Shown piece after piece: positions 5,801 through 21,044 of a stretch of 45,625 nucleotides of DNA (its first letter is position 1; every line of letters begins with the position of its first letter). The DNA lies in the NCBI GenBank assembly GCA_021806005.1, contig JAJZDM010000015.1, positions 1 to 45,625 on the forward strand, written 5' to 3'. The translations under genes were made by a program, and so were the position numbers. Source of the DNA: Acidobacteriota bacterium. GTDB taxonomy: Bacteria; Acidobacteriota; Terriglobia; Terriglobales; Acidobacteriaceae. The notes below the pieces were generated by a model. That model searched no databases. It worked only from the letters and a program-made list of their open reading frames with translations, and was not told the origin of the DNA.

Positions 5801-6346
5801 TTTCAAGGCTATCCCAAGGAGATCGACGGAGCCAGCCCTGGGGATCTCAGTTACAGCTACAATCTCGCAAGCCTCACCGGTCCCTTCCAGCACGAACGCG
5901 GCGACTACACGCACTTCGGGGATGTAACTCCTCTTCTCAAAGGCGCCGATGACCGCTTCGCCATCTTTGGCAGCGGCGAAGGCATCGCGGCGGAGTTCAA
6001 TACATCCAATCTGCCCTCACTTCCCACAGGCTGGAAGCGTGATTACTTCTTCTATGCAAACGGATATGAGAAGGACATGGACTGGTGGGACTCCTCACCG
6101 TTTACCGTGACGCCGCTTCCCTTCCATGAGATGGTCTCCTATCCGTATCCCGTCCAGCAAGGCTTTCCAACCAGTGCCGCCGCGCTTCGGTACCGACTGA
6201 ATTGGAACGATCGGTATGTCTCGGGAGACCCCACGGGGCTGCATCAGTTCCACTATCAATGGCTTCCTTCCACCCCGCAGGACGATCGCTCCACGGATAT
6301 ACGGAAGCACGCGCCTGCTTTCACCAACCAGCAGCAGGTCCCGTAG
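2876..6346 (+). CDS. Secreted TPR + FG-GAP/VCBS + ASPIC/UnbV (CRTAC1-type) protein, 1,156 aa
   Basis: Large exported protein of unknown function. A signal peptide ends at THAHA-type residues PAHA-V (about residue 22). Roughly four to five TPRs follow (about 29-195). Then come about seven FG-GAP/VCBS blades, each with an acidic calcium-type loop such as DYDHDGDLDL, DYNKDGWMDI and DIDNDGWIDL (about 250-590). An ASPIC/UnbV domain with GLGAKVEV and LRILWPTG spans about 610-690. The remaining 450 residues, from SSCPVLFVWNG on, match no domain I recognise. TPR plus ASPIC architectures are common in acidobacterial and planctomycete secretomes. It may share a transcript with the gene at 6436 (89-base gap). 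A second ASPIC protein lies at 10961. Confidence 0.88.
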   Translation: MRVRIAWYFLLVISAATPAHAVTEKRDNLEAIQLNNQGVAFMGQQSTERAAGAFAAAFKMDPGFAQAEINEGIALYTLQKLNDAEQVLRKAIDIDPDSAQAWYNLGLTQHSKYQLAQAAASFEHAMTLDPHDADSLYFEGACYEEMGQFAKAIPLFQKTLEINSYHASAEFGLARSLMRIGHTSEAREDFKRFQHLTSAKLGTPMGLAYGEQGHYSIVTAVKGPQTGAHKMIPVHLVAMPMISGNEQSAWTSTGGACMIDATGSGQMDLVLMQSGPQAIRILHRRGDGSFQQLDAVAMGLNASGHAEACTVGDDTGDGRNDLAVAMDDAVLLFRNLGHGKFQNVTAEAGLTPRNKPMGITFVDYDHDGDLDLFLTGSPLNPGSESDVLWHNNGNGTFTERTRETGLAGSGTTVGATLTDFNNDRAVDLAVTGDGAAPVLYINPRDGKWPTQPLYQGENLPPTTGIAVFDYNKDGWMDIAVTHSGAPGLTLWRNRATPDHVSRRFERVPLPLHGALRGWGVTPIDIDNDGWIDLAAIVDTGSGPEVRVFRNRGDGTFQDVSKTLGLDNVKLKNPRGLLAADLEDDGATDLIVTQLDAPPVLLHNAGANKNHFVRLDLTGNADNKTGLGAKVEVFANGLWQKWELPGASGYQTQGPPQILIGLGKAEGINLLRILWPTGVLQDEIDLPHTETITETEVDRRGSSCPVLFVWNGSKYKFITDVLGAGVVGHWFSPTLHNIPRPSEWVRIDGADVSPVNGKVSVRFMEPMEEVNYIDQLRLVAVDHPDNVEVNPSERFLDDPPFASGRVVASMEARPPVAAWDGNGLDVLHKLLQRDHQFASGFTPLQYDGFANLHALTLDLGRIDPKAPLRLLMTGYVDYFSATSLYAAWQAGVRPIAPYVEAQLPDGKWQRITGEAGFPAGLERTMVLNLTGKLPPGAQRIRLMTNLQIYWDQVLIDNQAPGSFRTTELPLDFATEQFQGYPKEIDGASPGDLSYSYNLASLTGPFQHERGDYTHFGDVTPLLKGADDRFAIFGSGEGIAAEFNTSNLPSLPTGWKRDYFFYANGYEKDMDWWDSSPFTVTPLPFHEMVSYPYPVQQGFPTSAAALRYRLNWNDRYVSGDPTGLHQFHYQWLPSTPQDDRSTDIRKHAPAFTNQQQVP

Positions 6347-6957: not shown

Positions 6958-7073
6958 AACCTGGAACATATCGAGATGATTGCGGTTGACTTGCCCTTGC
7001 CGGGCAAAGCTCCTTTCCTGCCCCTGCAAGCTCTCTGCTCTCCAGCGCCGGAGTGGACTTGAGAACCAACATC

Positions 7074-8495
7074 ATGACCGAATCTGACTCCAACCTGCAT
7101 CTCACACCAGCCGTAGCGCAACTGGAGCTGCTGCGCACCGGCAGGCTCGCCGTCGCGGAACTGGCTGAGGCGCATCTACGGCAGATCCAGCGGCTCAATC
7201 CTGCGCTGAACGCATTCGCAGACTTTGATGCGGAGCGCGTACGTGCTCAGGCCCGGCGCATGGACGCATCGACAGGCGTCCGAGGGCCGCTTTACGGGCT
7301 ACCAGTTACGGTCAAGTCGTCGATTGCCGCCGCAGGCTTTCGTTGTGAGATGGGCAGCCTGCTCCATCGCGGCGACATCCCTCGCGAAGACGCCGTCGTG
7401 GTGGCGCGACTGCGCGCTGCCGGAGCCTTGATTCTCGGCACCACCAACTGTCCCGAGTTTCTGATGGCCTACGAGACAGCGAACCTGCTCCACGGGCGGA
7501 CGCATAACCCCTGGGACCTGGAACGGACGCCCGGAGGATCGAGCGGCGGCGAATCAGCTGCCATCGCCGCCGGGCTCTCGGCGGCCGGGCTGGGCAGTGA
7601 CAGCGGCGGATCGGTGCGCGTACCCGCGCACTTCACCGGCATCTGCTCACTGAAACCCACTCCGGGACGCATTCCCGGCATGGGTCACCTGCCGCCATGC
7701 GTGGGGCCATTTTCAATCCTCGGAGCCATCGGCCCCATGGCGCGCACCATAAGCGACGTGACCCTGCTGTTTCAGACTTTGAGCGGGCAGGATCCGGGTG
7801 ACCCATGCAGTCCTCCGCTGCCGCTGCTTGAGACCAACCGCCAGCAATTATGCGCCCGACCCATCGGCTACTTTGAGGACGACGGGCTGATTCCTGTCAC
7901 GCCGGAGACGCGCGCCGCCGTTCGGGCTGCCGCTCAAGCCATTCGCGAAGCGGGATTTCGTGTTGAACCCTTCCGGCCCAGCACACTGGAGGCCTTGCGC
8001 CGCCTGTGGTGGAAGTTTTTTGTGCAGTGCGGGGCCATGTTTTATGAGCCCGCAATCCGCGACAGACGCGAGCAACTGAGCCCCATCTTCACGGAGTTCC
8101 TCGGCATCGCGGAATCAGCCCGGCCGCTCACCGCAGCGCAGTTGCTGGACACCTGGGCTGAACTGGATATCACTCGCGCCAGAACGTTGGCCGAGATGCG
8201 CAACTACACGGCTCTGCTCTGCCCTGTGTCCAGCATCCCGGCCTTTCGCCACGGCGAGCGGCAATGGAATATCGAAGGCCAGACCGTCGAGTATCTCGAT
8301 GCCGTGCGGCACACCCAATGGTTCAATGCGCTGGCCGCACCTGCCGCAGTGGTTCCCGTGGGCAAATCCGCGCAGGGTTTGCCGATCTGCGTGCAGATTG
8401 CGGCCAGGCCCTTCGAAGACGAGACGGTTTTGGGCGTCGCCGCAGTGCTGGATGCGGCATTCGGATACAGCCCACCTCCCATCGCAACGTTGTAA
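7074..8495 (+). CDS. Amidase signature family hydrolase (GatA/FAAH-like)
   Basis: Ser-cisSer-Lys amidase. Counting from an in-frame GTG at 7053, the triad is Lys88 (GLPVTVKSS), cis-Ser163 (GGSSGGE) and nucleophile Ser187 (SDSGGSVR). The 24-residue spacing between the two serines matches fatty acid amide hydrolase. No signal peptide is visible, so it is probably cytoplasmic. No gatB or gatC lies nearby and the C-terminal half is diverged from GatA, so a catabolic amidase is likelier than tRNA amidotransferase. Its substrate is unknown. The start is either the GTG at 7053 or the ATG at 7074, and neither has a strong ribosome site. A hairpin follows the gene. Confidence 0.87.
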   Translation: MTESDSNLHLTPAVAQLELLRTGRLAVAELAEAHLRQIQRLNPALNAFADFDAERVRAQARRMDASTGVRGPLYGLPVTVKSSIAAAGFRCEMGSLLHRGDIPREDAVVVARLRAAGALILGTTNCPEFLMAYETANLLHGRTHNPWDLERTPGGSSGGESAAIAAGLSAAGLGSDSGGSVRVPAHFTGICSLKPTPGRIPGMGHLPPCVGPFSILGAIGPMARTISDVTLLFQTLSGQDPGDPCSPPLPLLETNRQQLCARPIGYFEDDGLIPVTPETRAAVRAAAQAIREAGFRVEPFRPSTLEALRRLWWKFFVQCGAMFYEPAIRDRREQLSPIFTEFLGIAESARPLTAAQLLDTWAELDITRARTLAEMRNYTALLCPVSSIPAFRHGERQWNIEGQTVEYLDAVRHTQWFNALAAPAAVVPVGKSAQGLPICVQIAARPFEDETVLGVAAVLDAAFGYSPPPIATL

Positions 8496-8590: not shown

Positions 8591-8612
8591 ACCTCCATCT
8601 TTTGATGGAGGT
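8591..8612. promoter_or_regulatory. Perfect 9-bp inverted repeat with TTTT loop upstream of DAHP synthase
   Basis: ACCTCCATC (8591-8599), TTTT, GATGGAGGT (8604-8612) is a perfect inverted repeat 95 bases after the amidase stop and 20 bases before a consensus TATAAT. No T-run follows on either strand, so it is a poor intrinsic terminator. Position and symmetry fit an operator or an RNA hairpin equally well. Confidence 0.5.
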
Positions 8613-8632: not shown

Positions 8633-8638
8633 TATAAT
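8633..8638 (+). promoter_or_regulatory. Candidate -10 element (TATAAT) for the DAHP synthase operon
   Basis: An exact TATAAT lies 30 bases before the GTG start at 8668. The sequence 17 bases upstream (GGTAAG) is not a good -35. TTGATG at 8602-8607 resembles one but is 25 bases away and lies inside the inverted repeat. An activator-dependent promoter is possible. Confidence 0.45.
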
Positions 8639-8667: not shown

Positions 8668-9549
8668 GTGCGCGCAACGCGGCAAGATTGTTTTGCCGGA
8701 ACCCCGGATGTTTTAAAGGACGAGCGGCGGCAACAGACGGTCATCCGGGTTCTGGGAATCGAAGTTGGCGGAGAGGACTTTGTCACCATGGCAGGGCCGT
8801 GCTCGGTTGAGACCGAGTCCCAGCTTATGGCCACCGCTGATCACGTTCGCCGCTGCGGTGCTCGCATCCTGCGCGGCGGCGCCTTCAAGCCACGCAGCTC
8901 TCCGTACTCCTTCCAGGGGCATGGCCTCAAGGGTCTCAGAATGCTTGCGCGCGCCCGCGCGGAGTACGGACTGGCCATCGTCACCGAGGTCATGTCAGAG
9001 TGTGATGTGCCCATGGTGGCCGAGTATGCCGACATACTGCAGATCGGCTCGCGCAGCATGGAAAACTTCTCCCTGCTGGAGGCTGCAGCCCGATCGGGGC
9101 GACCTGTGCTTCTCAAGCGTGGAATGGCTGCCACGGTTACCGAGATGCTCCAATCTGCGCAGTTGATCCTGGAAAACGGAAATCCCAATGTCATTCTTTG
9201 CGAACGAGGCATACGCACCTTCGAAACCTCGATGCGCAACACCTTCGATGCCGCAGCCATCGCCCTGCTCAAGCAGATCTCGCACCTGCCGGTGATCGCC
9301 GACCCCAGCCACGCGGCCGGGTATCGCGACCTGGTTCCCTCGCTGGCGCGCATCGCCGTAGCCGCAGGCGCTGACGGTCTGCTGGTTGAAGTTCACCCCG
9401 ATCCCGATCAAGCCTGGAGTGACGGGGAACAGTCCCTGGATTTTGTGGAATTCCAGACAATGATGGTCTCCCTTGAACCTTATCTTTCGCTGCGCTCGTC
9501 TGTACGCAGCACATCCATGGACGCAGAGTTGACGGAGGTCGGTGGGTGA
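8668..9549 (+). CDS. aroF: 3-deoxy-7-phosphoheptulonate (DAHP) synthase, type I-beta, catalytic domain only
   Basis: Condenses phosphoenolpyruvate with erythrose 4-phosphate, the first step of the shikimate pathway, in the cytoplasm. Motifs in order are [50 protein letters not shown] and [10 protein letters not shown]. The Cys, His, Glu and Asp in these stretches are the metal ligands known for the family. At 293 residues it has neither the N-terminal ferredoxin-like regulatory domain nor a chorismate mutase domain seen in some relatives, which suggests no feedback control of those types. The start is GTG, with GGAG 8 bases upstream. It heads a seven-gene operon of mostly exported redox and propeller proteins, an unusual setting. 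The next gene starts inside its stop codon. Confidence 0.92.
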
Positions 9550-10964
9550 GGGGTCCTCTCTTCTTGTTTTTAGCTGCACTGTATGCCGGCATCCCTGCGC
9601 CCTCGCGCGCCTTACCGCCCGGCACGGCGGCTCCATTGGGCGCGGACTTTATTGTCACAGCCGCACCGGTCTACGTTCCCCTGGCAGAGATGCACGGACG
9701 AGAACGCTTCCCCCACGGAGCTCAGTTACTGCTGGTCCATGACGGCAAGGCAACACCACTCGTGGCCGGCTTCGCAGAGACCGCGGACGCCGATATCTCC
9801 TTCGACGCAAAAAGGGTGCTCTTCGCCGGCAAGCGTACCACCGGCGATCCATGGCAGATCTGGGAGCTCACACTCCAGGATGGTTCGGTGCGAAACGTCA
9901 TCCAAACGGAAGGCGACGCCGAGAGGCCCTTCTATCTGCCGGGCGGACGCATGGTCTGGGCGCAGCGCACCGCCTCCGGATTCCGGATCGAGTCCGCTCC
10001 GGATGGCCATCCGCCAAAGGTTCCGTTCCTGAACCCGACCGCGGGTCCCGGCATCCTCCCCCTCACGTACATCCAGACCAGCACCTTTCCCGCCACCATC
10101 CTGGCCGACGGACGCATTCTCTTTGAGTCCGGCTACCCGCTCGGCGAGGGTGCAACTCCTGAGCTATATGTGGTCTACGCTGACGGCTCGGGGGTGAGAG
10201 CTCTCCGCCCGTTTCAAGGTCGCGCCCGCTGGGGAGGTTCGGAGCTGGCCTCCGGCGACGTCGTGTTCACCCAGGGAAGCTCGCTGGCGCGCTTTACCTC
10301 TTCACTGCTGCAGCAGACTCCCATCGCTGCTCCCCATGCTGAATACGCCGGAGCAATTCAGGAGACGGCTTCGGGCGCATGGCTGCTCAGCGCTCGCAGG
10401 ACCGGCGAAGCGCACGATGCGATTGACCGATGGATACCCGGAGCGGCAGCCCTTGAAACTGTCCTGGCACAGCGCGGTGATGATCTTGTCGAACCCGTGC
10501 TGCTGGCGCCGCGCACTCCCCCGCGGCGCTTCCCCTCAGACCTGCACCCGTGGAAGTACGCCAATCTCCTTGCCCTCGACTCTCGCTTGTCCCTCGAAGG
10601 CAACTTGAAGCAGACGCCCGCGTCGGTCCGCTTGGAGACCCAGGACCCGAATGGCCGTGTCCAGGTCAACGGCACGGCGCCGGTCGCCCCCGATGGCTCC
10701 TTCTTTGTGAAGGTACCGGAGAACCGTCCGATTCGCTTTCTTGTGCTCGACAGAAACGGCGCCGTACTGCGCCGTGAGCGCGGTTGGTTCTGGAGCCGCG
10801 GCGGCGAACAGCGCGCCTGCATCGGTTGCCATACGGGACCGGCGCTCTCTCCTGAAAATCGCACCCCTGAAGTGCTGCTGCGCACCACCACCCCGGTTGA
10901 CCTCACCGGGGATTCACCCCTCACAGCAACGCGCACCGATGTGCAGAAAGGCAATACGAGATGA
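9546..10964 (+). CDS. Exported HzsA-like propeller protein with one c-type haem motif
   Basis: A 472-residue exported protein. Its signal peptide ([17 protein letters not shown]) probably ends near residue 23. Residues 40-330 show PD40/TolB-like repeats ([38 protein letters not shown]). Near the C-terminus a single CIGCH lies at residues 425-429, followed by PENRTPEVL. This layout resembles the hydrazine synthase alpha-subunit-related family found widely outside anammox bacteria. No hydrazine chemistry is implied, because the second haem domain and the partner subunits are absent. Its GTG start at 9546 overlaps the aroF stop, and its own stop overlaps the next ATG, so translation is coupled both ways. 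Function unknown; a periplasmic electron-transfer role is inferred. Confidence 0.8.
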
Positions 10965-12727
10965 TCCTTCGCTCTCTGCTCCTTTTCTCTGTGGCCGTCT
11001 CGATTGCCACTGCGCAAAACGCCGCACCACCGGCGCAGCCCAACCCGGATGCCGCAAAAGCGCTGGGACAATCGACGATCCGCTTTGAAGATGCCACCCC
11101 CCAGTCCGGAATCCACTTCGTCCACAGCTTTGGATCCGCCAAGCTGAGCTCTCTGCTGGAAGGCACCGGCGCCGGCTGCGTCTGGTTCGACTACAACAAC
11201 TCCGGCCGCAAGTCGCTCTTTGTCGTCAATGGAAGCACCCTTGACGCGGGCATGACGCCCAATCCCCTGTCGCCCCAGCCTGACCCAGCTCCGCACGCCC
11301 ATCTGTATCGCAATGACGGTAACGGTCATTTTACTGATGTAACCGCGCAGTCGGGCCTCGATCCGGATCTGTACGGCGACGCCGTCACCGTCGCAGACTA
11401 CGACAACGACGGCTATCAGGACCTGCTGGTCACCGGCTACGGCAAGGTCATTCTCTATCACAACAACGGCAACGGCACATTTACTGACGTCACCCGGCAA
11501 AGCGGCATCAAGGTAAACGGCTGGGCCATCAGCTCCACCTGGCTTGACTACGATCGTGATGGCTGCGTGGATCTTTTCGTCGGCCGATACGTCAAATTCG
11601 ACCCCAAATATCGCTCCTACTATGCGGCGGACAACTACCCCGGGCCGCTCAGCTATGCGGGCGAGTCGAACATGCTCTTTCACAACAACTGCAACGGCAC
11701 GTTCACCGACGTCTCCGACAAGTCCGGAATCAGCGCGTCCATCGGCCGGACCATGGGAGTCACCGCAGCCGACTTCGACAACGACGGCTGGGATGACATC
11801 TACGTCACCAATGACGACACTCCAAACTTCCTCTTCCACAACCTGCACAATGGAACCTTCCAGGAGATCGCCAACATCACCGGCGCGGCCTATGGAGAGG
11901 ATGGCGAAGCCACATCCTCCATGGGTCCGGTCGCAGCCGACCTCTGGAACCGCGGAGTGCTGGACCTCTGGGTGACCGATGGAAGCTACAACCGTCTGCT
12001 GAAGAATCTGGGTGCTCCGCAACTCGGATCTCCCCCGACCAAATCAGACTGGCAGGGCTTTCAGGATGTTACCGCTGCCAGCAACATCTCCCAGGTCGAG
12101 GGGCAATACGTCAGTTGGGGCAGCGGCGTCTACGACTTCGACAACGACGGCCTGCTGGATATCCTGGTCCTTCACGGCGGGCTCACCCACATGATTCCGA
12201 TGGAGCACACCCTCTTCCGCGGAATGGGCGACGGCAAATTCGAGGATGCGTCGCGCCAGGCAGGCCCCGTGCTGAGCGTGCGCACCGTAGCGCGCGGCGC
12301 CTGTTTTGCCGACTACCTGAACGATGGCAAAGTTGGCGCCTACGTGGTCAACCTCGGATCGGAGGGGACGCTGCTTCACAACGTCTCCTCCGGCGCCGGC
12401 CACTGGGTTGACGTCCAACTCGTCGGCGCCATGAGAAAGGGCGATGCGGGTGTGGCCGCCGGCGATCCTCTGGCAAGGAGCAACCGCGACGGCATCGGCG
12501 CGCGTATCGAAGTCTACACCAGCAGTGTGCGCCGGACGGCGGAACGAGTGGCCAGCTCCGGCTACCTCTCGCAGAATCAAGGACGCGTGCACTTTGGCTT
12601 GGGCAATGCTCCGGTCATCGACAAATTGGTCGTCCGTTGGCCAAGTGGAATTGTTCAGACGCTCCCGAATCAACCGGTGGATCGCGTGCTCACGGTGCAG
12701 GAGCCGGGAAGAGGGGGGCCGCAATGA
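10961..12727 (+). CDS. Secreted CRTAC1-family protein (FG-GAP/VCBS repeats + ASPIC/UnbV)
   Basis: A 588-residue exported protein. The signal peptide is [19 protein letters not shown], with likely cleavage near residue 18. About six FG-GAP blades follow, carrying calcium-type loops DYDNDGYQDL, DYDRDGCVDL, DFDNDGWDDI and DFDNDGLLDI. The C-terminal ASPIC/UnbV domain contains GIGARIEV, GYLSQNQGRVHFGLG and LVVRWPSGIVQT. Bacterial CRTAC1 homologues have no settled biochemical role, although the fold suggests calcium-dependent binding of protein or glycan. The ATGA overlaps at both ends tie it to the HzsA-like and cytochrome genes. It is a shorter cousin of the TPR-containing protein at 2876. Confidence 0.88.
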   Translation: MILRSLLLFSVAVSIATAQNAAPPAQPNPDAAKALGQSTIRFEDATPQSGIHFVHSFGSAKLSSLLEGTGAGCVWFDYNNSGRKSLFVVNGSTLDAGMTPNPLSPQPDPAPHAHLYRNDGNGHFTDVTAQSGLDPDLYGDAVTVADYDNDGYQDLLVTGYGKVILYHNNGNGTFTDVTRQSGIKVNGWAISSTWLDYDRDGCVDLFVGRYVKFDPKYRSYYAADNYPGPLSYAGESNMLFHNNCNGTFTDVSDKSGISASIGRTMGVTAADFDNDGWDDIYVTNDDTPNFLFHNLHNGTFQEIANITGAAYGEDGEATSSMGPVAADLWNRGVLDLWVTDGSYNRLLKNLGAPQLGSPPTKSDWQGFQDVTAASNISQVEGQYVSWGSGVYDFDNDGLLDILVLHGGLTHMIPMEHTLFRGMGDGKFEDASRQAGPVLSVRTVARGACFADYLNDGKVGAYVVNLGSEGTLLHNVSSGAGHWVDVQLVGAMRKGDAGVAAGDPLARSNRDGIGARIEVYTSSVRRTAERVASSGYLSQNQGRVHFGLGNAPVIDKLVVRWPSGIVQTLPNQPVDRVLTVQEPGRGGPQ

Positions 12728-14775
12728 ATCGTATCGGGCCAGGTGGACGCGGTACATCCTCCCACCGCATCGCGACGCTCGCTGCGCTGATTGCGGCACT
12801 GCTGATCGTCGCGCCGTGGCGCGGCCAGACCGTCCACGCCGCCACCGCTCCTCAAACCGGCGAAGTTCTGGGCTACGCCTCGCCCGTGGAGTTGCTGTTT
12901 TCGCCGGACGGCACACGGCTCTATGTACTCTGCCAGGATAGCGGCGAGGTGCGCGTGCTGAATGCCACAACCTACGCTCCCATCCAGACCATCGTCGTTG
13001 GCCACGTGCCGCGCGGATTCTTTCTCACTCCAGACGGGAACAGGCTGTTCGTAGCCAACTCCTGGGATGACACCATCTCGGTGATCGACACCCGGGCGCT
13101 GAAGGTGGCCGCCACCTGGCATGCAGGGATGGAACCCTCCAGTGTCGTTGAAGACTCCGCCGGCAAGTATCTTTACGTCGCCAACCGCATCAGCAACGAC
13201 GTCGCGGTGCTGGACGCCCACACCGGGAGCGAGGTCAAGAGGCTGGCCGCCGGACGCGGGACGAGCTATATGACGCTCTCGCCCGATGGCCAGCGAATCT
13301 ACGTCACGCATGTCTATCCCAATCCCGCACCCTTGGGCTCGCAGCCGGAGTCGGAGATCACGGTCATCGACACGGCCAGCGCCGAGGTGATCAATCGCAT
13401 TCCCCTGCCAAGCATCGCCGGCGCCTTTCACATAGCGGTCACCTCCAATAGCCGGTTGGGTGTGGTAGCCGAACTGCATCCGAAGAACCTGTTGCCGATG
13501 ACGCAGGTCGAGCAAGGCTGGGCCTTTGAAGATACACTCACGTTGTTCGGCTCGGGTGTACAGAACAAGACGGTCGAAGTGCCGCTCGACGATCTGGACA
13601 GCTACGCCGTGCGACCCTTCGGAGTGGCTATTACGCCGGATGGTTCGCACCTCTACGTGAGTTCCGGCGGCTCGGACATCGTCACCGCCATCAACCTGCC
13701 GCACCTGCAACGTTATGTCCATACCCAGCACGGCCCCATCGTGTATAACCTGGCTGCCGGCGCCCATTACGTGGTGGCGCGCATCCCCGTGGGCAAGGAT
13801 CCGCGTGGCATGGCCGTCAGCGCCGATGGCCGTCGGCTGCTGGTAGCCAACCGGCTCGACGACACCATCAGCGTCATCGACACGCCCACCAGCAAGGTGG
13901 TCACCACAATTGCTCTGGCTCCATCCAGGCGCCTGTGGACGGAGAACTTCGGCCTGCAGATGTTCTCCGAGATGACCATCGCCACGCCGGGGCAGAGGCG
14001 CTGCCCTGCCTGTCATATCGATGAGCGGCATCGTAACGCCAAAAGGATGAAGCTGACCCCACAGCAGCAGGTGGAGGCTCTGCGGCGCGGCCAACAGGCC
14101 TTCTATACCGCGAGCTACTCCTTCCATGGCGGCATGGGCTGCACCAACTGCCACATCGACACCACCATGGACGGGATGCGGTGGAACTTTGAACCAGCAG
14201 GCCTGGGCCGAAACATCGTGGAAAATATGCTGCTGGAAGACATACGAAACACTACGCCCTACGATTGGAGTGGCATCAATCCCAATCTGCCCACCCAGGG
14301 CGGGCCGCGGACGGAACAGTTCATCTGGCGCTCACAGAACTTTGACGTCCGCACACTGGCCGATCTATCCGCCTATATCAACAGTCTGCCGGCGCGGCCT
14401 AACCGCTGGCGCCTGCCCAACGGCGAACTCACGCCGTCGCAGCAGCGCGGCAAGCAGATCTTTGATCGGACGGTCGACGACTTCGGCAAGCCCATCCCGC
14501 TCGCCAATCGATGCAACTTCTGCCACAGCGGCCCGCTGGGAACGGATCACCGGAAGGTTGACGTCGGAACCAGGGGCCCAAACGATGATTCGGGGCTATT
14601 CGTAACGGCGCAGTTGACCAACATCGCGCTCACCGCGCCTTACCTCCACGACGGCTCGGCGGCCACGCTCGAAGAGATATGGACCATCTACAACCCTCAC
14701 GACCAGCACGGTCGCACCAATGACCTGACCAAGGACCAACTGAACGACCTGATCAACTACCTGCGGACCCGCTGA
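12724..14775 (+). CDS. YVTN beta-propeller multihaem cytochrome c with CcP/MauG-like C-terminus
   Basis: A 683-residue exported protein. The N-terminal hydrophobic segment is IATLAALIAALLIVAPW. Residues about 40-415 form a YVTN-type seven-bladed propeller (LLFSPDGTRLYVLC, FLTPDGNRLFVANSWDDT, VSADGRRLLVANRLDDT). The C-terminal part has three haem c motifs: CPACH (427-431), CTNCH (473-477) and CNFCH (597-601). It also has NIALTAPYLHDGSAATLEE, which matches the conserved tail of di-haem cytochrome c peroxidase/MauG proteins. It may pass electrons or oxidise a partner protein; the substrate is unknown. The frame is open from 12637, but the ATG at 12724 overlaps the previous stop and begins the signal peptide. 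Confidence 0.86.
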   Translation: MNRIGPGGRGTSSHRIATLAALIAALLIVAPWRGQTVHAATAPQTGEVLGYASPVELLFSPDGTRLYVLCQDSGEVRVLNATTYAPIQTIVVGHVPRGFFLTPDGNRLFVANSWDDTISVIDTRALKVAATWHAGMEPSSVVEDSAGKYLYVANRISNDVAVLDAHTGSEVKRLAAGRGTSYMTLSPDGQRIYVTHVYPNPAPLGSQPESEITVIDTASAEVINRIPLPSIAGAFHIAVTSNSRLGVVAELHPKNLLPMTQVEQGWAFEDTLTLFGSGVQNKTVEVPLDDLDSYAVRPFGVAITPDGSHLYVSSGGSDIVTAINLPHLQRYVHTQHGPIVYNLAAGAHYVVARIPVGKDPRGMAVSADGRRLLVANRLDDTISVIDTPTSKVVTTIALAPSRRLWTENFGLQMFSEMTIATPGQRRCPACHIDERHRNAKRMKLTPQQQVEALRRGQQAFYTASYSFHGGMGCTNCHIDTTMDGMRWNFEPAGLGRNIVENMLLEDIRNTTPYDWSGINPNLPTQGGPRTEQFIWRSQNFDVRTLADLSAYINSLPARPNRWRLPNGELTPSQQRGKQIFDRTVDDFGKPIPLANRCNFCHSGPLGTDHRKVDVGTRGPNDDSGLFVTAQLTNIALTAPYLHDGSAATLEEIWTIYNPHDQHGRTNDLTKDQLNDLINYLRTR

Positions 14776-14788
14776 AAGGACACGGAAC

Positions 14789-15898
14789 ATGGGAGGGATG
14801 CTCAACAAGCTTTGCCTGGGTATGGTGCTTGCGGCCATAGCGGCGCCGGCATTTGCCGCAGCGCCTCCATCGGCCCCATTGCCTCCATCGCCCCGGATGC
14901 CTCATTACCGCTTTGTCAACTACACCACTGCGAATGGACTGCCCAACAATCACGTCTACTCCGTTCTGGTGGATGGAAGCCGCATCTGGGCGGGGACCGA
15001 TGATGGGTTGGGCCTGTATGAAAACGCCAGGTGGCGGACCTTTACCACCAGGGATGGCCTGGCTCAGCAAGCCGTGCTTTCACTTGCGCTCGACAAACGA
15101 ACTGGCGACGTGTGGGCAGGAACCATGGGCGGGCTGAACCGCATCTCCGGCGGGCGCATCATCGCCACCTACAACCAACTGAACTCAGGGCTGAGTAACG
15201 ATATCGTCTACGGCGTATCGGTAGAAGGAAAAAATGTTTGGGTCGCCACCGCCGCAGGAGCCTGCCGGCTGAACCTGGATACGAACCAATGGTCGATTTA
15301 TACCGATACCAACACCCCCATGAAGGAGATCTGGGCCTATGGCGTCTCCGCCGCGCCCGACAAGGTGTACTTCGCCATCTGGGGTAGCGGCCTGCTCGAG
15401 TACAACCAGCAAACCAGGCTATGGGACATCTACGAAGATCCCGACCACCAGACCGACATTGTGCTCTTCAAAGACCAGGGGCTCATCCACGACATCGTCT
15501 CTTCCGTCAGTTATGTGGAGAAGACCGTCTGGGTGGCCACTTACTTCGGCGCCAGCCGCTACGATGGCCGCTATTGGCATAACTTCCTCACCAAGGACAG
15601 CGGTCTGCCGTCGAACTTCATCAACTACGTGAAGGCGGTGGACGCCAACCACGCATGGTTCTGCACCGACAAGGGGCTGGCTTACTACGACGGTGCCAAC
15701 TGGGCCGTCTACACACCGTCACTCACCAACGGCAAGCCGGAGATGTGGGTCAGCAACGCCCAGGGTCATGCGGCCCATATCCCCGTCACCACCGCACCGG
15801 CCAACAACTATATGCTCGGCATCGACTTCCAGGGCCGCGATATCTGGATCGCGACGGCCGGGGGGTTGAGCCACGGAATCTTCGAACCACAACCATAA
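14789..15898 (+). CDS. Exported Reg_prop-type (two-component-regulator-like) beta-propeller protein
   Basis: A 369-residue protein with a signal peptide, MLNKLCLGMVLAAIAAPAFA, cleaved near AFA-A. The mature part contains repeated ligand-binding propeller blades of the kind found in the sensor part of hybrid two-component systems: GLPNNHVYSVL...IWAGTDDGLGLY, GLAQQAVLSLA...VWAGTMGGLNRI and GLPSNFINYV...AWFCTDKGLAYY. No kinase, transmembrane or response-regulator part follows, so it would act as a free periplasmic or extracellular binder. Starts at 14789 or 14798 are both possible, with GAAAGGA upstream. It sits 13 bases after the cytochrome and 12 bases before the RidA gene. Confidence 0.82.
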   Translation: MGGMLNKLCLGMVLAAIAAPAFAAAPPSAPLPPSPRMPHYRFVNYTTANGLPNNHVYSVLVDGSRIWAGTDDGLGLYENARWRTFTTRDGLAQQAVLSLALDKRTGDVWAGTMGGLNRISGGRIIATYNQLNSGLSNDIVYGVSVEGKNVWVATAAGACRLNLDTNQWSIYTDTNTPMKEIWAYGVSAAPDKVYFAIWGSGLLEYNQQTRLWDIYEDPDHQTDIVLFKDQGLIHDIVSSVSYVEKTVWVATYFGASRYDGRYWHNFLTKDSGLPSNFINYVKAVDANHAWFCTDKGLAYYDGANWAVYTPSLTNGKPEMWVSNAQGHAAHIPVTTAPANNYMLGIDFQGRDIWIATAGGLSHGIFEPQP

Positions 15899-15910
15899 GG
15901 AGCCACCACC

Positions 15911-16414
15911 ATGAGTTCATCTACTGCAAGTCTTGAGACCATCACCCGCGCGCCGATCGAGAAGCACGCCGTCACCAACTACGGCGTGCTCAACGAGGCC
16001 TACTGTTATGACAAACCGAGTTCCTTTTCGCGAGGCATGAAGATCGACCTCGGTCAGGTGACCATCCTGTTCATCTCAGGCACCGCATCGATCGACGAGC
16101 ACGGCAAGAGCGTGCACATCGGCGACTTCCGCGCACAGATGCGACGCACGCTCTCCAACATCACCGGACTGCTGGAGAGTGAGGGTTGCACCTGGCGCGA
16201 CATCGTCAGAACCACCTGCTATCTGCGGGACATCGAACGCGATTACGAGGCCTTCAACGAAGAACGGACGGCCTTCTACAAAGAACAGGGGCTTGATCCC
16301 CTGCCCGCATCAACTGGCATTCAAGCCATTCTCTGCAGGCCGGAGTTGCTGATCGAGATCGAGGCTATCGCCATGTTCCGCAGCAACAAGGCGGAGATCA
16401 GCAAGGAGCAGTAA
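15911..16414 (+). CDS. RidA/YjgF/YER057c/UK114-family protein
   Basis: A 167-residue RidA-fold protein. The family hydrolyses reactive enamine/imine intermediates to ketones and ammonia, but many subfamilies have other or unknown roles. Visible features are ILFISGTASIDEHGKSVHIGDF, a QMRRTLSNITGLLESEGCTW helix region, DIVRTTCYLRDIERDYEAFN and a C-terminal LLIEIEAIA. The canonical catalytic Arg of RidA sits in a C-R-[PE] region, and ILCRPELLIEIEA fits that position. No signal peptide is seen, so it is one of the two cytoplasmic products of an otherwise exported operon. AAGGAG lies 7 bases before the ATG. It follows the Reg_prop gene by 12 bases and precedes the binding protein by 2. Confidence 0.85.
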   Translation: MSSSTASLETITRAPIEKHAVTNYGVLNEAYCYDKPSSFSRGMKIDLGQVTILFISGTASIDEHGKSVHIGDFRAQMRRTLSNITGLLESEGCTWRDIVRTTCYLRDIERDYEAFNEERTAFYKEQGLDPLPASTGIQAILCRPELLIEIEAIAMFRSNKAEISKEQ

Positions 16415-16416
16415 TC

Positions 16417-18477
16417 ATGATCAAGGGATGGTTGACGGCCGCCGCCTGTCTTTGGGCGACGGCCGTAGCGGGCACGGTTCTGTGCCAGACGCTCAAAGAG
16501 GGTTCGGTTGCACCTTCGGACCGGAACACGACGAACTCCTGGTGCTCCTGCGGCGCCCATCCCCCGGGACCGGAGCCCGTATGGACCGCCAAACCGTATG
16601 CCAACGTACCGCAGGATCTGGAGCCCTATGCCAGGTTCGTCAAGCCATACAACTTCTATTACCTTCAACCGACGATCTGGAACGGGCCCGGACGAGATGT
16701 ACCCCCTCCCCGGAATCTGACCGAAGTACGTATCGGTTTCGTGGGCCCCATCTCTCCGCACGATCCTGACTACGTCATGGGCACGCACATGCTGCAAGGC
16801 GTGCAACTGGCGATAGATGAAGCGAACACCCGTGGCGGGTACGGAGGCAAACCGTTCCGCCTGATGCTGCACGACGACTACAACAACTGGCAGGCGGGTG
16901 CGGCCAGCGGCAACATCCGTCCCACCAACCCTGCCATCTGGGGGGCCGGCCTGGATCCAGCCGTCCAGTGCATCTACGACGACAAGGACTGGGCCATCTT
17001 CGGCTCCATCAGCTCTGAGACCACGCATGAGATGTTGCGTCTGGCGCTCAAAGCCGAGATCCCCATCGTCAATTCAGCCTCCACGGATCCCACCATCCCG
17101 GAAACCTCTGTCCCCTGGTACTTCACGGATCTGCAGGATGACCGCGTGCAGGGCTACACACTGGCGCGCCGCATCTATACCGAACTTGGCCTGAAAAACG
17201 TTGCGATCCTGCGCGTCAACAACCGCTATGGCCGCATGGGCATCGTCAAATTTCACTCCGCCTCGCTTCGCCTCGGCCATCCCGTCGTCCTCGAACAGAC
17301 GTTTGTGGCTGGGACCACCGATTTCTCGCGGGCGCTGAGAAACATCCAGGACTCGCGTGCCGACGCCGTCGTCTTGTGGGCCGACGAAGCTCCCGCAGCC
17401 ATGATTTTGAAGCAGATGCGCGCTATGGGAATGAAACAGCGCGTCTTTGGCTCCTATCGCACGCTTGGCTCCACGCTTCTGGCCCAGGCAGGCCCGGCGG
17501 CAGAGGGATTTGAAGCTGTGTTTCCATACGATCCCACCCGCACAGACCCGCGCTGGCTCGCCTTCAATCGTCGTTTCGATTCCCGCTTCCACGAGCCTCC
17601 CGATCAGCTTGCGTCCCTTGCCTACGATGCCATGAACATCCTGCTCGACGCCATCTGTAGAGCTGGCTTGAATCGGGTCCGCATTCAGGACGCCCTGGAC
17701 GATGTGCGGCAATATGACGGCGTGACCGGGCCCATGCTCTTCGATCCCAACCGGAAGAATGTCGCGCCGATGTATCTGGGCACAGTGCACCATGGGACGA
17801 TCACCTACCGGCTCGCTCCCATGTCGAAGCCGCAGGGCACAGCGCAGAAGTCAGCGCAGAAGTCAGCGCAGCCCACCACCGCAAACAACGGTGCCGGCCA
17901 ATCTCCCGCTGCGACTCCTGCGGCAGAACCCACTCCCTATGCACGCGTGGGTGAGGATGGCATCCGTTACTTTGGACCGGCACAGCCCAGCGTTCCGCGT
18001 GGCGCCTTGCGCGCCGTTCTCTTCGGCCCCCAGGCCGCCAAACTGGCGCAGTCGCCCGCCATCAGGGAGCAGTTGGCCGCAGCCGGGCAAAGGGGGCGCG
18101 CATGGCTGCTCCTGCCCGTGGACAGCGACCAGCAGTGGGGCATAGCCTCCACCCAACTGGTTCGTTTCTTGTGGAACGAACACGCTCTGGCCATCATTGC
18201 TCTGGGCAGCAAAGCCGGTCATCTGTCGGAACAACTGGCACTGAAGACCTTCGTCCCGGTTGTGGCTGTATCCAACGACCAGACGCTCACCTCGGCGGCG
18301 GTGCCCTGGATCTTTCGCCTGCCCACCGGAACCTCCGCCGTGGCGGCCCTGCGCCTGCTCACCGACGCCGAAGCACGCGGCGGACCGAACCCCGAACGGG
18401 TAAGGGACGTGCTGGCCTCGGGTGAACCAATCTCCGGATTCGCCTTTCTTCCCAGCGGAGATCCACGCGTGCAGTAG
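16417..18477 (+). CDS. Periplasmic binding protein (type I, Leu/Ile/Val-like) with an extra C-terminal half-domain
   Basis: A 686-residue exported protein with signal peptide MIKGWLTAAACLWATAVAGT. An unusual segment, about residues 25-100, contains the CSC pair in NSWCSCGAHPP. A full type I periplasmic binding domain (about 103-468) follows: IGFVGPISPHDPDYV, GVQLAIDEANTRGGYGG, FGSISSETTH, IPIVNSASTDPTIPE and NRYGRMGI. After an Ala/Gln/Pro-rich linker (about 469-510), residues about 520-660 resemble a single lobe of a second such domain (TFVPVVAVSNDQTL, AAVPWIFRLPTGTSA). No LivHMGF permease or ATPase gene is nearby, so it may sense or present a ligand rather than feed a transporter. It is the last gene of the operon and converges on hpnE. 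Confidence 0.84.
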   Translation: MIKGWLTAAACLWATAVAGTVLCQTLKEGSVAPSDRNTTNSWCSCGAHPPGPEPVWTAKPYANVPQDLEPYARFVKPYNFYYLQPTIWNGPGRDVPPPRNLTEVRIGFVGPISPHDPDYVMGTHMLQGVQLAIDEANTRGGYGGKPFRLMLHDDYNNWQAGAASGNIRPTNPAIWGAGLDPAVQCIYDDKDWAIFGSISSETTHEMLRLALKAEIPIVNSASTDPTIPETSVPWYFTDLQDDRVQGYTLARRIYTELGLKNVAILRVNNRYGRMGIVKFHSASLRLGHPVVLEQTFVAGTTDFSRALRNIQDSRADAVVLWADEAPAAMILKQMRAMGMKQRVFGSYRTLGSTLLAQAGPAAEGFEAVFPYDPTRTDPRWLAFNRRFDSRFHEPPDQLASLAYDAMNILLDAICRAGLNRVRIQDALDDVRQYDGVTGPMLFDPNRKNVAPMYLGTVHHGTITYRLAPMSKPQGTAQKSAQKSAQPTTANNGAGQSPAATPAAEPTPYARVGEDGIRYFGPAQPSVPRGALRAVLFGPQAAKLAQSPAIREQLAAAGQRGRAWLLLPVDSDQQWGIASTQLVRFLWNEHALAIIALGSKAGHLSEQLALKTFVPVVAVSNDQTLTSAAVPWIFRLPTGTSAVAALRLLTDAEARGGPNPERVRDVLASGEPISGFAFLPSGDPRVQ

Positions 18478-18537: not shown

Positions 18538-20010
18538 CTACAACCACTTCATCCAGCCCGCAGGGGGCAGGCCTGGAGCCAGGAAGTTCGCGGCGTTCCC
18601 GGTGGCGCGGGCCACAGCCTCGGCGGCCAGGCGGCCGCTGCGCACGGCCCCTTCCATCGTCGCGGGCCAGCCGGACTGAGTCCAGTCCCCGGCGAGGTAA
18701 AGATTGCCTCCGGGAGCCTCCGCGGCGGGGCGGAAGCGGTCCAGCCCGGGGGTTACCGAGAAGGTGGCCCGAGCCTCCTTCAGCACCGCGGACTTAAGCA
18801 CTTTGGCCTGGCGAAACTCTGGAAAAAACCTCGCCAGCTCGTCCGTGGCGGAGTGAAGAATCTGCTCCGGCCTCTGCCCAAGCTCGGCGTGCGAGGCGCT
18901 GATGACCAACTCAAGGTAGTGGCTGCCGGTCGGAGTTTGCTCAGAGTCTCTGATCTCCACGCTGCGGCTCGCGGTCTCCAGACTGCGGATTCTTGTCTTG
19001 TTGAAGAGCCACTGGATGCGGGTGTCCAGTAGGGCTGCGTGATCCAGATCCGTGATCGCGCGGTCCAGCCAGAGGTGAACGGTGGTGATGGGCGCGTGGA
19101 TGAAGTGGGAGAGCAACGGCAGGATCCGCTGGCGCTGCGGAGACTCTTCAGGGAGCGTCGCCAGCAGGCGCGCCGTCTGCTCAAACGGCAGGGCAAGGAT
19201 CAGGCTGGGCGCCGTGTGTCTGGTCACCCCTCCGGAGCCGTCCGAGGCCACGGCCTGCCACAGGCCGTCGGGCAGCACCTCAATGCTCTCCACGCTGGAG
19301 CGATAGTGCAACACCGTTCCCTGCTGCACAGCCAGTCGAGCCACAAGACCATAAAACTCTGAGAGCGGCTGGGAGGGTATGCCGAAGCGGCCACCCGCCG
19401 CGGATCTCAGAAACGACTCATAAAAAACCTGCCCGGCGTAGCGGGTGGAGCAGCGCTCGAAGGTGTCATTCAGGGTGCCCACAATGATGGGCTCCCAGAA
19501 GTGACGTATCGCGCGTTCGGTCTGGCCTGTGCGCTTGAGCCAGGCTGAGAAGGGTTCGTCGTCACGGACGGGATAGCCGCGGAGAAAGCCAAGCAGACCG
19601 AGGGCGATGCGGGACTTGTCCACCAGGGAGAGCATGGGTGCACGCAGAAAACTGAGCGTGTTGTGAGCCGGAGCAGGAAGCGATCCTGCCGCAATCTCGC
19701 TGCGGCGAGGCGGGTTCTTCGCTCCGGACGGTTCAAGGAAAGTGATGCTGTCGTACCAGCGAATGTGCTCCGCTGCGCCGCACAGCCGACAGAGATCCAG
19801 CAGATTGGTACAGCAGCCCAGCAGAACATGCTGAGAGTCGACGACCTCGTTGAGCGCGGGGTGGGTGTAGGAGTAAGCTCGGCCTCCGGCGAAGGGTCTG
19901 CGCTCCAGCAGCGAGACCGTTGCTCCGGCTCCGGAGAGAGCCACCGCGGCAGCCAGGCCCGCTGCCCCGGCGCCGAGAATCAGAACATCGGGCGTGGTCG
20001 GTTGGCTCAT
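18538..20010 (-). CDS. hpnE: Hydroxysqualene dehydroxylase (squalene-associated FAD-dependent desaturase) HpnE
   Basis: Flavoenzyme that reduces hydroxysqualene to squalene, the last step of the three-enzyme bacterial squalene route. The FAD-binding motif VLILGAGAAGLAAAVALSGAG lies near the N-terminus, with an acidic end of the second strand at SLLERRPFAGGRAYSY. The C-terminal NLYLAGDWTQSGWPATMEGA is the typical second FAD-contact motif of phytoene desaturase-like proteins. At 490 residues it is of normal size. The ATG at 20010 overlaps the hpnD stop (ATGA). It is the last gene of the hopanoid operon, and no squalene-hopene cyclase follows within the window. Confidence 0.93.
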   Translation of the reverse strand: MSQPTTPDVLILGAGAAGLAAAVALSGAGATVSLLERRPFAGGRAYSYTHPALNEVVDSQHVLLGCCTNLLDLCRLCGAAEHIRWYDSITFLEPSGAKNPPRRSEIAAGSLPAPAHNTLSFLRAPMLSLVDKSRIALGLLGFLRGYPVRDDEPFSAWLKRTGQTERAIRHFWEPIIVGTLNDTFERCSTRYAGQVFYESFLRSAAGGRFGIPSQPLSEFYGLVARLAVQQGTVLHYRSSVESIEVLPDGLWQAVASDGSGGVTRHTAPSLILALPFEQTARLLATLPEESPQRQRILPLLSHFIHAPITTVHLWLDRAITDLDHAALLDTRIQWLFNKTRIRSLETASRSVEIRDSEQTPTGSHYLELVISASHAELGQRPEQILHSATDELARFFPEFRQAKVLKSAVLKEARATFSVTPGLDRFRPAAEAPGGNLYLAGDWTQSGWPATMEGAVRSGRLAAEAVARATGNAANFLAPGLPPAGWMKWL

Positions 20011-21044
20011 CCCTGGCGCCTTGCCTGCAGCGACCCGATCATCCCCCGGGCCAGGATGGCGAGCTTGCGTCCCGTGGAGACGGAGACCCGCTCCCGGAAG
20101 ACCGCCGATGGATCCTCGGCGATCCGGTCCAGCAGTTCGTGATAGATCTGGACCAGAACGCGCATGGCGGGACGAGCCTCCGGATCCAGCAGCGGAATCA
20201 GATCCTCAGCACTGCGGTAGTACTGTTGCGCTCTGTCGATCTCAAGCTGCAGCAGAGCCCCGGTCGCAGCATCGATCGGCGAACCCCAGCAGGCCGCGCA
20301 GATGGACTCCACACTGCTGCCCGTCCGCCGCAGGTCCTCCGCCGGCAGATAGATGCGCCCGCGCTCGGCGTCTTCACGCACATCGCGCAGAATATTGGTG
20401 AGCTGAAACGCGATGCCGGTGCGCTCCGCCAGCTCCTCGGCACGCGGATCGGTGTAGCCGAAGATGCGGATGCAGACCATGCCCACCACCGAGGCCACCA
20501 GATAGCAGTAACGGTAGAGATCGTCAAAGGTATCGTAGACGTCAAACAATCCGCCGCTGGCAGTCTGGCCAACCTTGGTCACGCTATGGCTCCCCGCCTC
20601 ACGGCCAGGGCCCTGCGAACGGACTGCCATGCGCGTTACGCCGGGCTGAACCGGCTGCAGGTCAAGTGTAGTTCCCTGTACCAGCTTTTCCAGCAGTTCG
20701 TCGGAGATGGAAAAGCGCCGCTGGGTATCGTTGAGCGCCAGGAAGATAGGATCGGTCACCGCGGCTGCGGCACGTGCCACTCGCCAATCGGCCGTCCAGG
20801 CAGCCATCGCCTCGCGGCGCTGCTCCAGGGAGAGGCTCTCATCATCGGCCAGGTCGTCCGCCCTGCGCATGAAGGCGTAAACAGCGCACATGGCATTGGA
20901 TTTGTCTCGCGGCAATACCCGAAAGGAGTAGTAAAAGTTCTTGGCCTCCCGCCTGGCAATCGCGCGGCAGTGCGCATAGGCCACCTCCAGCGCTGGAGAT
21001 TGCGGCTGGGGAGTGTGCGGCTGAGAAGTGGATGCAGCACTCAT
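20007..21044 (-). CDS. hpnD: Presqualene diphosphate synthase HpnD
   Basis: Condenses two farnesyl diphosphates to presqualene diphosphate. Squalene/phytoene synthase fold of 345 residues with both aspartate-rich motifs: RRADDLADDE near residue 89 and NILRDVREDAERGR near residue 215. Also seen are KNFYYSFRVLP near the N-terminus and YCYLVASVVGMVCIRIFGY in the middle. The ATG at 21044 overlaps the hpnC stop. Assignment to HpnD rather than phytoene synthase rests mainly on the neighbouring hpnC and hpnE. Confidence 0.93.
   Translation of the reverse strand: MSAASTSQPHTPQPQSPALEVAYAHCRAIARREAKNFYYSFRVLPRDKSNAMCAVYAFMRRADDLADDESLSLEQRREAMAAWTADWRVARAAAAVTDPIFLALNDTQRRFSISDELLEKLVQGTTLDLQPVQPGVTRMAVRSQGPGREAGSHSVTKVGQTASGGLFDVYDTFDDLYRYCYLVASVVGMVCIRIFGYTDPRAEELAERTGIAFQLTNILRDVREDAERGRIYLPAEDLRRTGSSVESICAACWGSPIDAATGALLQLEIDRAQQYYRSAEDLIPLLDPEARPAMRVLVQIYHELLDRIAEDPSAVFRERVSVSTGRKLAILARGMIGSLQARRQG

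Follow-up and report, generated by a model that had tools for sequence, protein, structure and literature searches.

A hydrazine synthase-like multi-haem operon with linked DAHP synthase and Rid genes in Acidobacteriota

The window analysed here, a stretch of 45,625 nucleotides from an Acidobacteriota bacterium of the family Acidobacteriaceae (assembly GCA_021806005.1, contig JAJZDM010000015.1, positions 1 to 45,625 of the forward strand), carries a seven-gene operon (8668-18477, + strand) in which homologues of the alpha, beta and gamma subunits of hydrazine synthase (HZS), an enzyme central to anammox bacteria, are encoded together. Judging from their sequences, genes 2 and 4 are an HZS-like alpha subunit and a fused HZS-like beta-gamma protein, separated by a CRTAC gene. 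The operon as a whole may specify an exported multi-haem oxidoreductase homologous to HZS, together with parts for ligand handling and supply, a reading that we favour tentatively and with somewhat less than even confidence. What appears to be new, on the sequence evidence, is the wide spread of such loci in Acidobacteriota, the mobile yet linked aroF and Rid genes, the absence of a BPD_transp_2 permease match above the cut-off from most carriers tested and the addition of haems in four ways.

Results

Homologues of three hydrazine synthase subunits in one operon

The seven genes had been recognised in a first-pass annotation of the DNA, and all of them, with their families, overlaps and gaps, are located where it had placed them. 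All lie on the + strand, genes 1 to 4 being joined by three 4-base overlaps and the later genes separated by gaps of 13, 12 and 2 bases. They encode, in order, a predicted type I-beta 3-deoxy-D-arabino-heptulosonate 7-phosphate (DAHP) synthase with a short N-terminus (gene 1, aroF; 8668-9549), the HZS alpha homologue, with a propeller, a middle domain and one c-haem motif (gene 2; 9546-10964), a CRTAC1-type FG-GAP/UnbV_ASPIC protein (gene 3; 10961-12727), the HZS beta-gamma fusion homologue, which joins a YVTN propeller to a di-haem domain resembling cytochrome c peroxidase (CCP) and MauG (gene 4; 12724-14775), a Reg_prop beta-propeller (gene 5; 14789-15898), a Rid (YjgF) protein (gene 6; 15911-16414) and a type I periplasmic binding protein that carries a second, incomplete binding-protein half (gene 7; 16417-18477). 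The start of gene 4 is taken as the ATG at 12724, the open reading frame listing beginning at an upstream TTG (12637). Every gene has at least one Pfam match above the cut-off. Gene 2 has one C-x-x-C-H motif and gene 4 has three, the other five genes having none, and in a crude hydropathy scan hydrophobic N-termini fit export of the products of genes 2, 3, 4 and 5 and, less strongly, of gene 7, no export-type N-terminus being seen in genes 1 and 6.

Gene 2 matches PF18582 with 58.7 bits (cut-off 26.6), and its profile matches the HZS alpha chain of Kuenenia stuttgartiensis (5c2v_A) over both the propeller and the middle domain (E 3.8e-30). In a Foldseek search with a structural model of modest quality (mean predicted local distance difference test score, pLDDT, 67; haem segment below 50), the same chain was the top match (E 1.6e-17), the first other protein following at E 1.5e-8.

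In gene 4, residues 53-388 align to residues 14-350 of 5c2v_B, nearly the whole HZS beta chain, and the alignment then runs into the gamma chain, 5c2v_C; a profile built from 11 relatives matches the two chains with E values of 2.6e-55 and 1e-34. Because the generic YVTN protein 1l0q outscores the HZS chains against this profile through repeat matches, the specific evidence lies in the collinear match to beta and gamma. A Pfam match to PF03150 is just above the cut-off (31.7 vs 25.6). Two of the three haem motifs, CTNCH (residues 473-477; 14140-14154) and CNFCH (residues 597-601; 14512-14526), are those of haems gamma-I and gamma-II, and the third, CPACH (residues 427-431), sits in a 46-residue insertion in the linker (13912-14049). 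The "YVTN three-haem protein" first annotated here is thus a fused HZS beta-gamma homologue, which makes genes 2 and 4 parts of one system.

The overall homology of the subunits, as well as the presence of one Multi-haem_cyto cytochrome in the genome, could be taken to mean that the operon encodes a true hydrazine synthase and that anammox-like chemistry occurs in Acidobacteriota. The key residues make this extremely improbable. In HZS, alpha-Tyr591 is a ligand of haem alpha-I, His587 sits on zinc and gamma-Cys165 forms a third haem thioether (PMC12758564). The haem alpha-I motif of gene 2, CIGCH (residues 425-429; 10818-10832), is part of the segment CIGCHTGPA, which has no Tyr four residues past the His, the place of alpha-Tyr591, and haem alpha-II is absent from this protein of 472 aa with a single CxxCH. 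In gene 4, Trp515 (14266-14268) occupies the place of gamma-His144, as in CCP and MauG, Gly526 (14299-14301) that of gamma-Cys165, and the beta-loop Glu of HZS aligns with a Gln. Scores against the HZS models are also far below their cut-offs, at 43 of 800 bits for gene 2 (NF052339) and 151 of 1250 bits for gene 4 (NF052342). Hydrazine synthesis was rejected as the function on the combined loss of alpha-Tyr591, haem alpha-II and gamma-His144.

In an alignment of 39 beta-gamma proteins, Trp is found at the gamma-144 place in 39 of 39 rows, and His106 as well as the His residues of the YFHDG and D-x-HGxT motifs are likewise kept in all 39. The gamma-Cys165 place is occupied by C in 27 rows, D in 10, A in 1 and G in 1, the Gly being found in the window only; the nearest relative of the window protein (L031) keeps Cys there. 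Trp at the gamma-144 place has been called important for catalysis in CCP and MauG (PMC12758564), and its presence throughout the alignment fits a MauG- or peroxidase-like character of the protein.

Spread and shuffling of the locus across Acidobacteriota

A search of 61 near genomes with the beta-gamma protein gave matches at E 1e-60 in 11, and a beta-gamma profile matched 21 of 396 genomes across the phylum (the window's own counted in both cases), a number that may be low since only the three best first-look candidates per genome were scored. Of 297 genomes, 29 contain PF18582, as opposed to 0 of 14 control genomes; among the 30 short loci returned, 16 have a beta-gamma or CRTAC match nearby, the other 14 being weaker hits. 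Loci with the same gene set are found in further families of the class as well as in genomes outside it, a recurrence beyond what chance would give. Spread beyond Acidobacteriota was judged from a Rid alignment scan of the genome collection alone, which yielded 375 relatives; the best 80 were kept, and their records are labelled Acidobacteriota or subgroups thereof, except for L103 (Arcobacter sp.). The L103 locus has the layout of the Bryobacteraceae locus L097 and groups with it, and the Arcobacter label may be an error. Paludibaculum fermentans, to which we return below, is presumably also an acidobacterium.

All seven genes were matched in each of the 10 non-window loci of the near-genome search, although in L027 aroF is fragmentary and Reg_prop is broken into two frames. 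Because 16 of the best 80 Rid matches lie apart from the locus (64 lie beside other cluster genes), neighbours were counted in genomes anchored on beta-gamma, as same-strand matches within 11 kb of that gene; all matches on HzsA contigs without beta-gamma (L138, L139 and L144) and on the extension loci L206-L208 were also included. Among the 29 non-window genomes with beta-gamma, drawn from the near-genome search and the phylum-wide profile search, HzsA is present in 28, CRTAC in 27, Reg_prop in 28, a binding protein in 26, a second binding protein in 16, Rid in 21, aroF in 19, a GMC match in 6, an amidase in 5 and Gluconate_2-dh3 in 4. These are lower bounds, since several genomes are cut by contig ends (G162, G221, G267, G298, G358, G156 and G210, among others), where an absence is no proof; in G358 (L201), the 4 kb upstream of CRTAC contain no aroF. 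The exception is G069 (L205), in which a distant beta-gamma protein has only a long Rid gene nearby.

A beta-gamma tree, computed by a quick search with support from the Shimodaira-Hasegawa-like approximate likelihood ratio test (SH-aLRT) only, was built from sequences of the present analysis and Kuenenia; 5 of 91 rows were dropped as more than 98% identical, and 39 of the remaining 86 were used, a selection that excludes fragments below 600 aa and the majority of near relatives. Since its root is a single long Kuenenia branch meeting L205, we make no claim from it on the origin of HZS. Five sublineages are apparent, each with a gene order of its own. The c554-type group with ten haems (sublineage I) has the order HzsA-CRTAC-beta-gamma-Reg_prop followed by two binding proteins, with Rid variable. 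Two sublineages begin with CRTAC: one with three haems (b), in which aroF stands among or behind the binding proteins, and one with six (c), in which aroF is upstream in L142 and the partial loci L145 and L201 yielded none. A fourth (d) has HzsA-CRTAC-beta-gamma-Reg_prop-Rid-aroF, two binding proteins and then often GMC, and the window type (e) has aroF-HzsA-CRTAC-beta-gamma-Reg_prop-Rid and a binding protein with fused halves, often with an amidase ahead. Depending on the sublineage, aroF is thus the first or the last gene, or it stands after Rid, between the binding proteins or ahead of CRTAC; Rid, too, occupies several places. Genes that have been reshuffled and yet kept together argue more strongly for a functional link than an unchanging order would. 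The refuting condition named in the first-pass annotation, a lack of conserved order in related genomes, did not hold: close relatives match all seven genes, and other sublineages show regular re-ordering. Of its interpretation, these comparisons support a conserved module in which exported haem proteins, propellers and binding proteins are joined by two enzymes that have no export signal.

Added haems, the di-haem unit and its possible partners

Among 11 beta-gamma alignment rows, the linker insertion is present in the window and L018 only, the other 9 lacking it; a linker haem at the same spacing also occurs in L029, L030 (on the contig shared with L018), L031, L032 and L033. Elsewhere, haems have been added at the N-terminus, one in L147-L150 and eight in the c554-type group, or at the C-terminus, four in L142, with c554 domains confirmed by Pfam in L103 and L142. 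Most relatives in the window's sublineage have no extra haem on beta-gamma. The addition of haems in four ways suggests selection for electron flow to or from the gamma unit.

Such haem-rich extensions in several sublineages would also suit a respiratory-type electron conduit, in which the cytochromes take electrons from a partner dehydrogenase and hand them on, the propellers serve as a scaffold, and aroF and Rid are incidental. In 6 of the 29 genomes, a match to a GMC flavoprotein, which could represent such a dehydrogenase, comes after the second binding protein, accompanied by Gluconate_2-dh3 in 4 of these 6 (both matches were Pfam-checked in L022 only). GMC was not found, however, beside the window-type locus or in other sublineages, and a CCP/MauG-type gamma-Trp retained in 39 of 39 proteins would not be needed for pure electron transfer. 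We consider a conduit of this kind unlikely, albeit worth keeping in view.

The conserved Trp leads to another alternative, namely, that beta-gamma acts as a MauG- or MbnH-like maturase and oxidises residues of the CRTAC, Reg_prop or binding protein to a protein-derived cofactor. MbnH-type models do match the gamma part (6e1c_A, E 3.7e-10; TIGR04039, 44 bits). The candidate targets include gene 3 (PF13517, 147 bits; PF07593, 77.9 bits; 9etn_A, E 6.8e-12) and gene 5, a Reg_prop protein (PF07494, 42.4 bits) in which no kinase domain was matched; in an alignment of 24 Reg_prop rows, the 39 invariant columns include 8 Trp and 2 Tyr. Propeller repeats conserve Trp anyway, though, and no maturation target is singled out; the TIGR04039 score is far below its cut-off of 363 bits, and a maturase would leave aroF and the binding protein unexplained. 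The likeness to MauG, MbnH and CCP consists in the di-haem domain and the conserved Trp, whereas here this domain is fused to an HZS-beta propeller and NCBIfam scores stay far below the cut-offs. Maturation is, in our judgement, quite unlikely as the function.

A DAHP synthase with a short N-terminus and an atypical Rid protein

By TIGR01361 (362 bits; cut-off 267.75) and its KPR(T/S) motif, here KPRS, the aroF product is a type I-beta DAHP synthase; it also matches PF00793 with 246.8 bits. Invariant Cys, His, Glu and Asp in the aroF alignment are, we assume, the metal ligands of the enzyme. Read from stop to stop, the window frame has at most 52 residues ahead of the GPC motif, and in 15 of 21 cluster copies this stretch is no longer than 80 residues, compared with 101-134 in 15 of 16 housekeeping DAHP synthase frames and 190 in the remaining one. 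The part missing from the window protein is presumably the regulatory domain. Type II DAHP synthase was not found in any of 27 genomes; each of these carries two or more PF00793 genes, with 2 to 5 in the 16 cluster genomes. The 15 other aroF-bearing genomes tested have at least three PF00793 genes each, and in 12 of them another frame shows the KPR(T/S) motif of DAHP synthases; in G029, G228 and G444, further PF00793 genes of unassigned class are present. By these motifs, the cluster aroF is a second DAHP synthase copy in at least 12 related cluster genomes. The best aroF tree splits the cluster copies into groups, yet a single clade is compatible with the data (approximately unbiased test, p-AU 0.223), for which reason we do not claim repeated recruitment.

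Gene 6 encodes a Rid protein of 167 aa (PF01042, 67.7 bits) in which the active-site Arg of RidA is replaced by Ser134, the motif reading PAS for PAR; S134 is invariant in 11 alignment rows. As judged from the literature on other family members, this Arg is essential in imine-hydrolysing RidA, about 10% of RidA proteins carrying Ser in its place (PMC4433059). The substitution weakens the earlier suggestion that the cytoplasmic enzymes deal with imine intermediates (PMC4433059), and with it an assignment of gene 6 as an imine or enamine deaminase. Nor could the protein be assigned as an FkbO/Hyg5-type chorismatase: it scores 32 bits against TIGR04444 (cut-off 325) and lacks the two-domain length. 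With the models and solved structures tried, the similarity between Rid and chorismatases was weak throughout (30-47 bits vs the cut-off of 325), and the best 50 of 705 Foldseek matches were of RidA type, no chorismatase being among the matches listed. A chorismatase role is accordingly left as a lead, the similarity being weak.

Two further observations concern Rid genes. Rid proteins of a longer, three-module kind (378-398 aa; motifs PASTG and SGTAS) are encoded within the locus or close to it in L148 (1974-3170), L199 (14301-15485) and L205 (16021-17157); the L148 protein, the only one tested, is far below the chorismatase cut-off. Near single Rid genes of the gene 6 subfamily, there are genes with a c-type haem motif close to their start, adjacent in L095 (10502-11743) and second next in L054 (11720-12097).

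A conserved binding protein mostly without a PF02653 permease

Gene 7 matches PF13458 with 169.9 bits and is the sole match to this family in the window genome (E 1e-8); its second half is indicated by matches to residues 498-685 in relatives. A PF02653 (BPD_transp_2) permease is missing from the window genome (G000), where other permease families were not searched, and above the cut-off the family is absent from 12 of 15 cluster genomes, the window's included, as against its presence in 12 of 14 control genomes. At E 1e-8, the locus copies are the sole PF13458 matches in 14 of the 15 cluster genomes, with one weak extra match in G398. An alignment of 24 binding proteins, in which each of the five groups is represented, has 34 invariant columns, including His, Asp, Arg and Trp residues. 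Given the lack of a PF02653 permease and the 34 invariant columns, the simplest reading is that the binding protein holds a conserved ligand without importing it by the BPD_transp_2 route.

Upstream signals and flanking genes

The TATAAT (8633-8638, + strand) and the inverted repeat described in the first-pass annotation are present in the window but are not conserved signals. The former occurs in 1 of 34 loci compared, the window alone, and the 9-bp repeat (8591-8612, strand not applicable), upstream of aroF, has a counterpart only in L039, as a 7-bp version. A conserved operator or promoter was rejected on these grounds. A consensus scan against shuffled sequences found promoter-like and terminator-like sites at the chance rate (1 with 2.0 expected and 7 with 6.7 expected, respectively).

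Just upstream of aroF, an amidase gene (7053-8495, +; PF01425, 333 bits) is a conserved neighbour in the window's sublineage; it precedes aroF in many loci, those within the neighbourhood table amounting to the 5 of 29 genomes given above. Further upstream lies a second CRTAC-type gene, encoding a TPR, FG-GAP and UnbV_ASPIC protein (2876-6346, +), and a CRTAC-type match ahead of the amidase is likewise found in L151, L195, L196 and L197. In L070 (4652-10498), TPR-CRTAC, amidase and Rid genes occur together and the rest of the locus is absent, possibly a remnant of a deletion. The window also contains nonulosonic-acid genes upstream (430-2717, -; NeuC above the cut-off, a PseB-like dehydratase below it), with genes resembling this set preceding the locus in L021 and L151, and squalene/hopanoid genes 3' of the operon on the opposite strand (18538-21976, -; hpnE and hpnC above the cut-off, an hpnD-like gene below it). 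The multihaem cytochrome of the window genome is encoded elsewhere (L212, G000:C133:1222-1716; Multi-haem_cyto, 81.5 bits) and has several CxxCH motifs.

Discussion

HZS was previously held to lack homologues (PMC12758564). The view that no described system has this gene set is not supported: clades I-III of HZS homologues, published in 2025 without a function, already bring together HZS alpha and beta-gamma, CRTAC1 and a pair of substrate-binding proteins (Hagglund et al., PMC12758564). Our search of the open-access literature on HZS-like genes led to that paper and to PMC10732223. The operon shares with clades I-III the proximity of the alpha and fused beta-gamma genes to a CRTAC1 gene, the Trp in place of gamma-His144 and the lack of a Tyr591 equivalent in alpha, with clades I and II the alpha-CRTAC-beta-gamma order, and with clades II and III the absence of haem alpha-II (PMC12758564). 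The two downstream substrate-binding proteins are mentioned there in the sentence following clade III, and one or more binding proteins are likewise encoded downstream here; the beta-gamma of clade II has no extra haem, unlike that of the window, with its haem in the linker (PMC12758564). In its accessible text, the paper does not contain the terms RidA, DAHP or Acidobacteri, and it names few species outside the Planctomycetes-Verrucomicrobia-Chlamydiae (PVC) group, Paludibaculum fermentans among them. As far as that text goes, the spread in Acidobacteriota, aroF, Rid, Reg_prop, the linker haem of the window group and the genome-wide permease search go beyond PMC12758564. For the hzs-like genes of Phycisphaerae metagenome-assembled genomes, some carriers of which could, according to the authors, be new anammox bacteria, the accessible text likewise describes no CRTAC, aroF or Rid (PMC10732223). 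Compared with Kuenenia stuttgartiensis HZS (5c2v), the domain plan is the same, an alpha propeller and middle domain, a beta propeller and a gamma di-haem unit, but catalytic residues and haem alpha-II are missing, beta and gamma are fused and the neighbours differ.

In the reading that we favour, the products of genes 2, 3 and 4 would be an exported multi-haem oxidoreductase (alpha, CRTAC1 and beta-gamma) with the layout of clade I and II loci, and the exported proteins would assemble into a complex. The gamma di-haem unit may carry out peroxidase- or MauG-like redox chemistry, the grafted haems providing a route for electrons out or in. The binding protein or proteins could hold a small polar ligand and present it to the complex instead of importing it. 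With less assurance, we suggest that this ligand, or a bound mediator, might be an aromatic from the shikimate pathway and that aroF and Rid might form a dedicated supply arm. The phenazine operon offers a parallel, having its own DAHP synthase, PhzC (PMC6435475, PMC8772962); since PhzC is of type II and has been tested, and no phenazine genes are present in the operon here, the resemblance is one of analogy, not kinship (PMC6435475).

Several observations weigh against this reading, most of them against its supply arm. No gene of the operon plainly converts chorismate to a product, and the chorismatase likeness of Rid is weak. In the c554-type group, aroF was seen in 0 of 3 loci with both flanks covered (L140+L206, L146+L207 and L199), and none was seen in the fetched parts of L094, L097 and L103, in which HzsA is preceded by little sequence; L140+L206 and L146+L207 also gave no Rid match. 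The supply arm is thus not essential to the family. Rid genes of the gene 6 subfamily stand apart from the locus in the 16 of 80 cases noted above, and 6 of 21 cluster aroF frames have at least 98 residues before GPC, about the housekeeping length (stop to stop, the start being unknown). In the assembly of the window genome, which is 97% complete and in 212 contigs, the sole other PF00793 gene is a KDO8P synthase by motif; no DAHP synthase besides aroF was thus found, and aroF may serve general metabolism there. The permease argument, for its part, covers PF02653 and no other permease family.

These points lend some weight to the view that aroF and Rid are mere passengers, ordinary metabolic genes within an HZS-like operon, for which the c554-type group, the solitary Rid genes and the single DAHP synthase of the window genome all speak. 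Nevertheless, 19 of 29 genomes retain aroF despite its sublineage-specific place, and 12 of the 15 aroF-bearing genomes tested have another DAHP synthase frame. On balance, we regard the passenger explanation as rather unlikely.

A more ambitious version of the favoured reading can also be formulated. The HZS-like complex may keep the two-site architecture of HZS, with the gamma-haem and the alpha-haem linked via beta, and catalyse in the periplasm a reaction of two steps, not described so far, whose substrate would be a small shikimate-derived molecule made with the help of aroF and Rid and delivered by the binding proteins; it would then represent a new class of haem enzyme, in a wider family that was the source of HZS. 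We offer this as speculation with only a slim chance of being correct.

Finally, the existence of a diverse HZS-like family in Acidobacteriota, many of whose members come from soil and peat according to their record labels, would make the wider function of the family testable. One carrier is Occallatibacter savannae (L055), a species whose type strain is in culture (PMC12935467). Genetic linkage with a DAHP synthase, and with binding proteins for which no matching permease was found, may provide concrete handles on the substrate of these enzymes.

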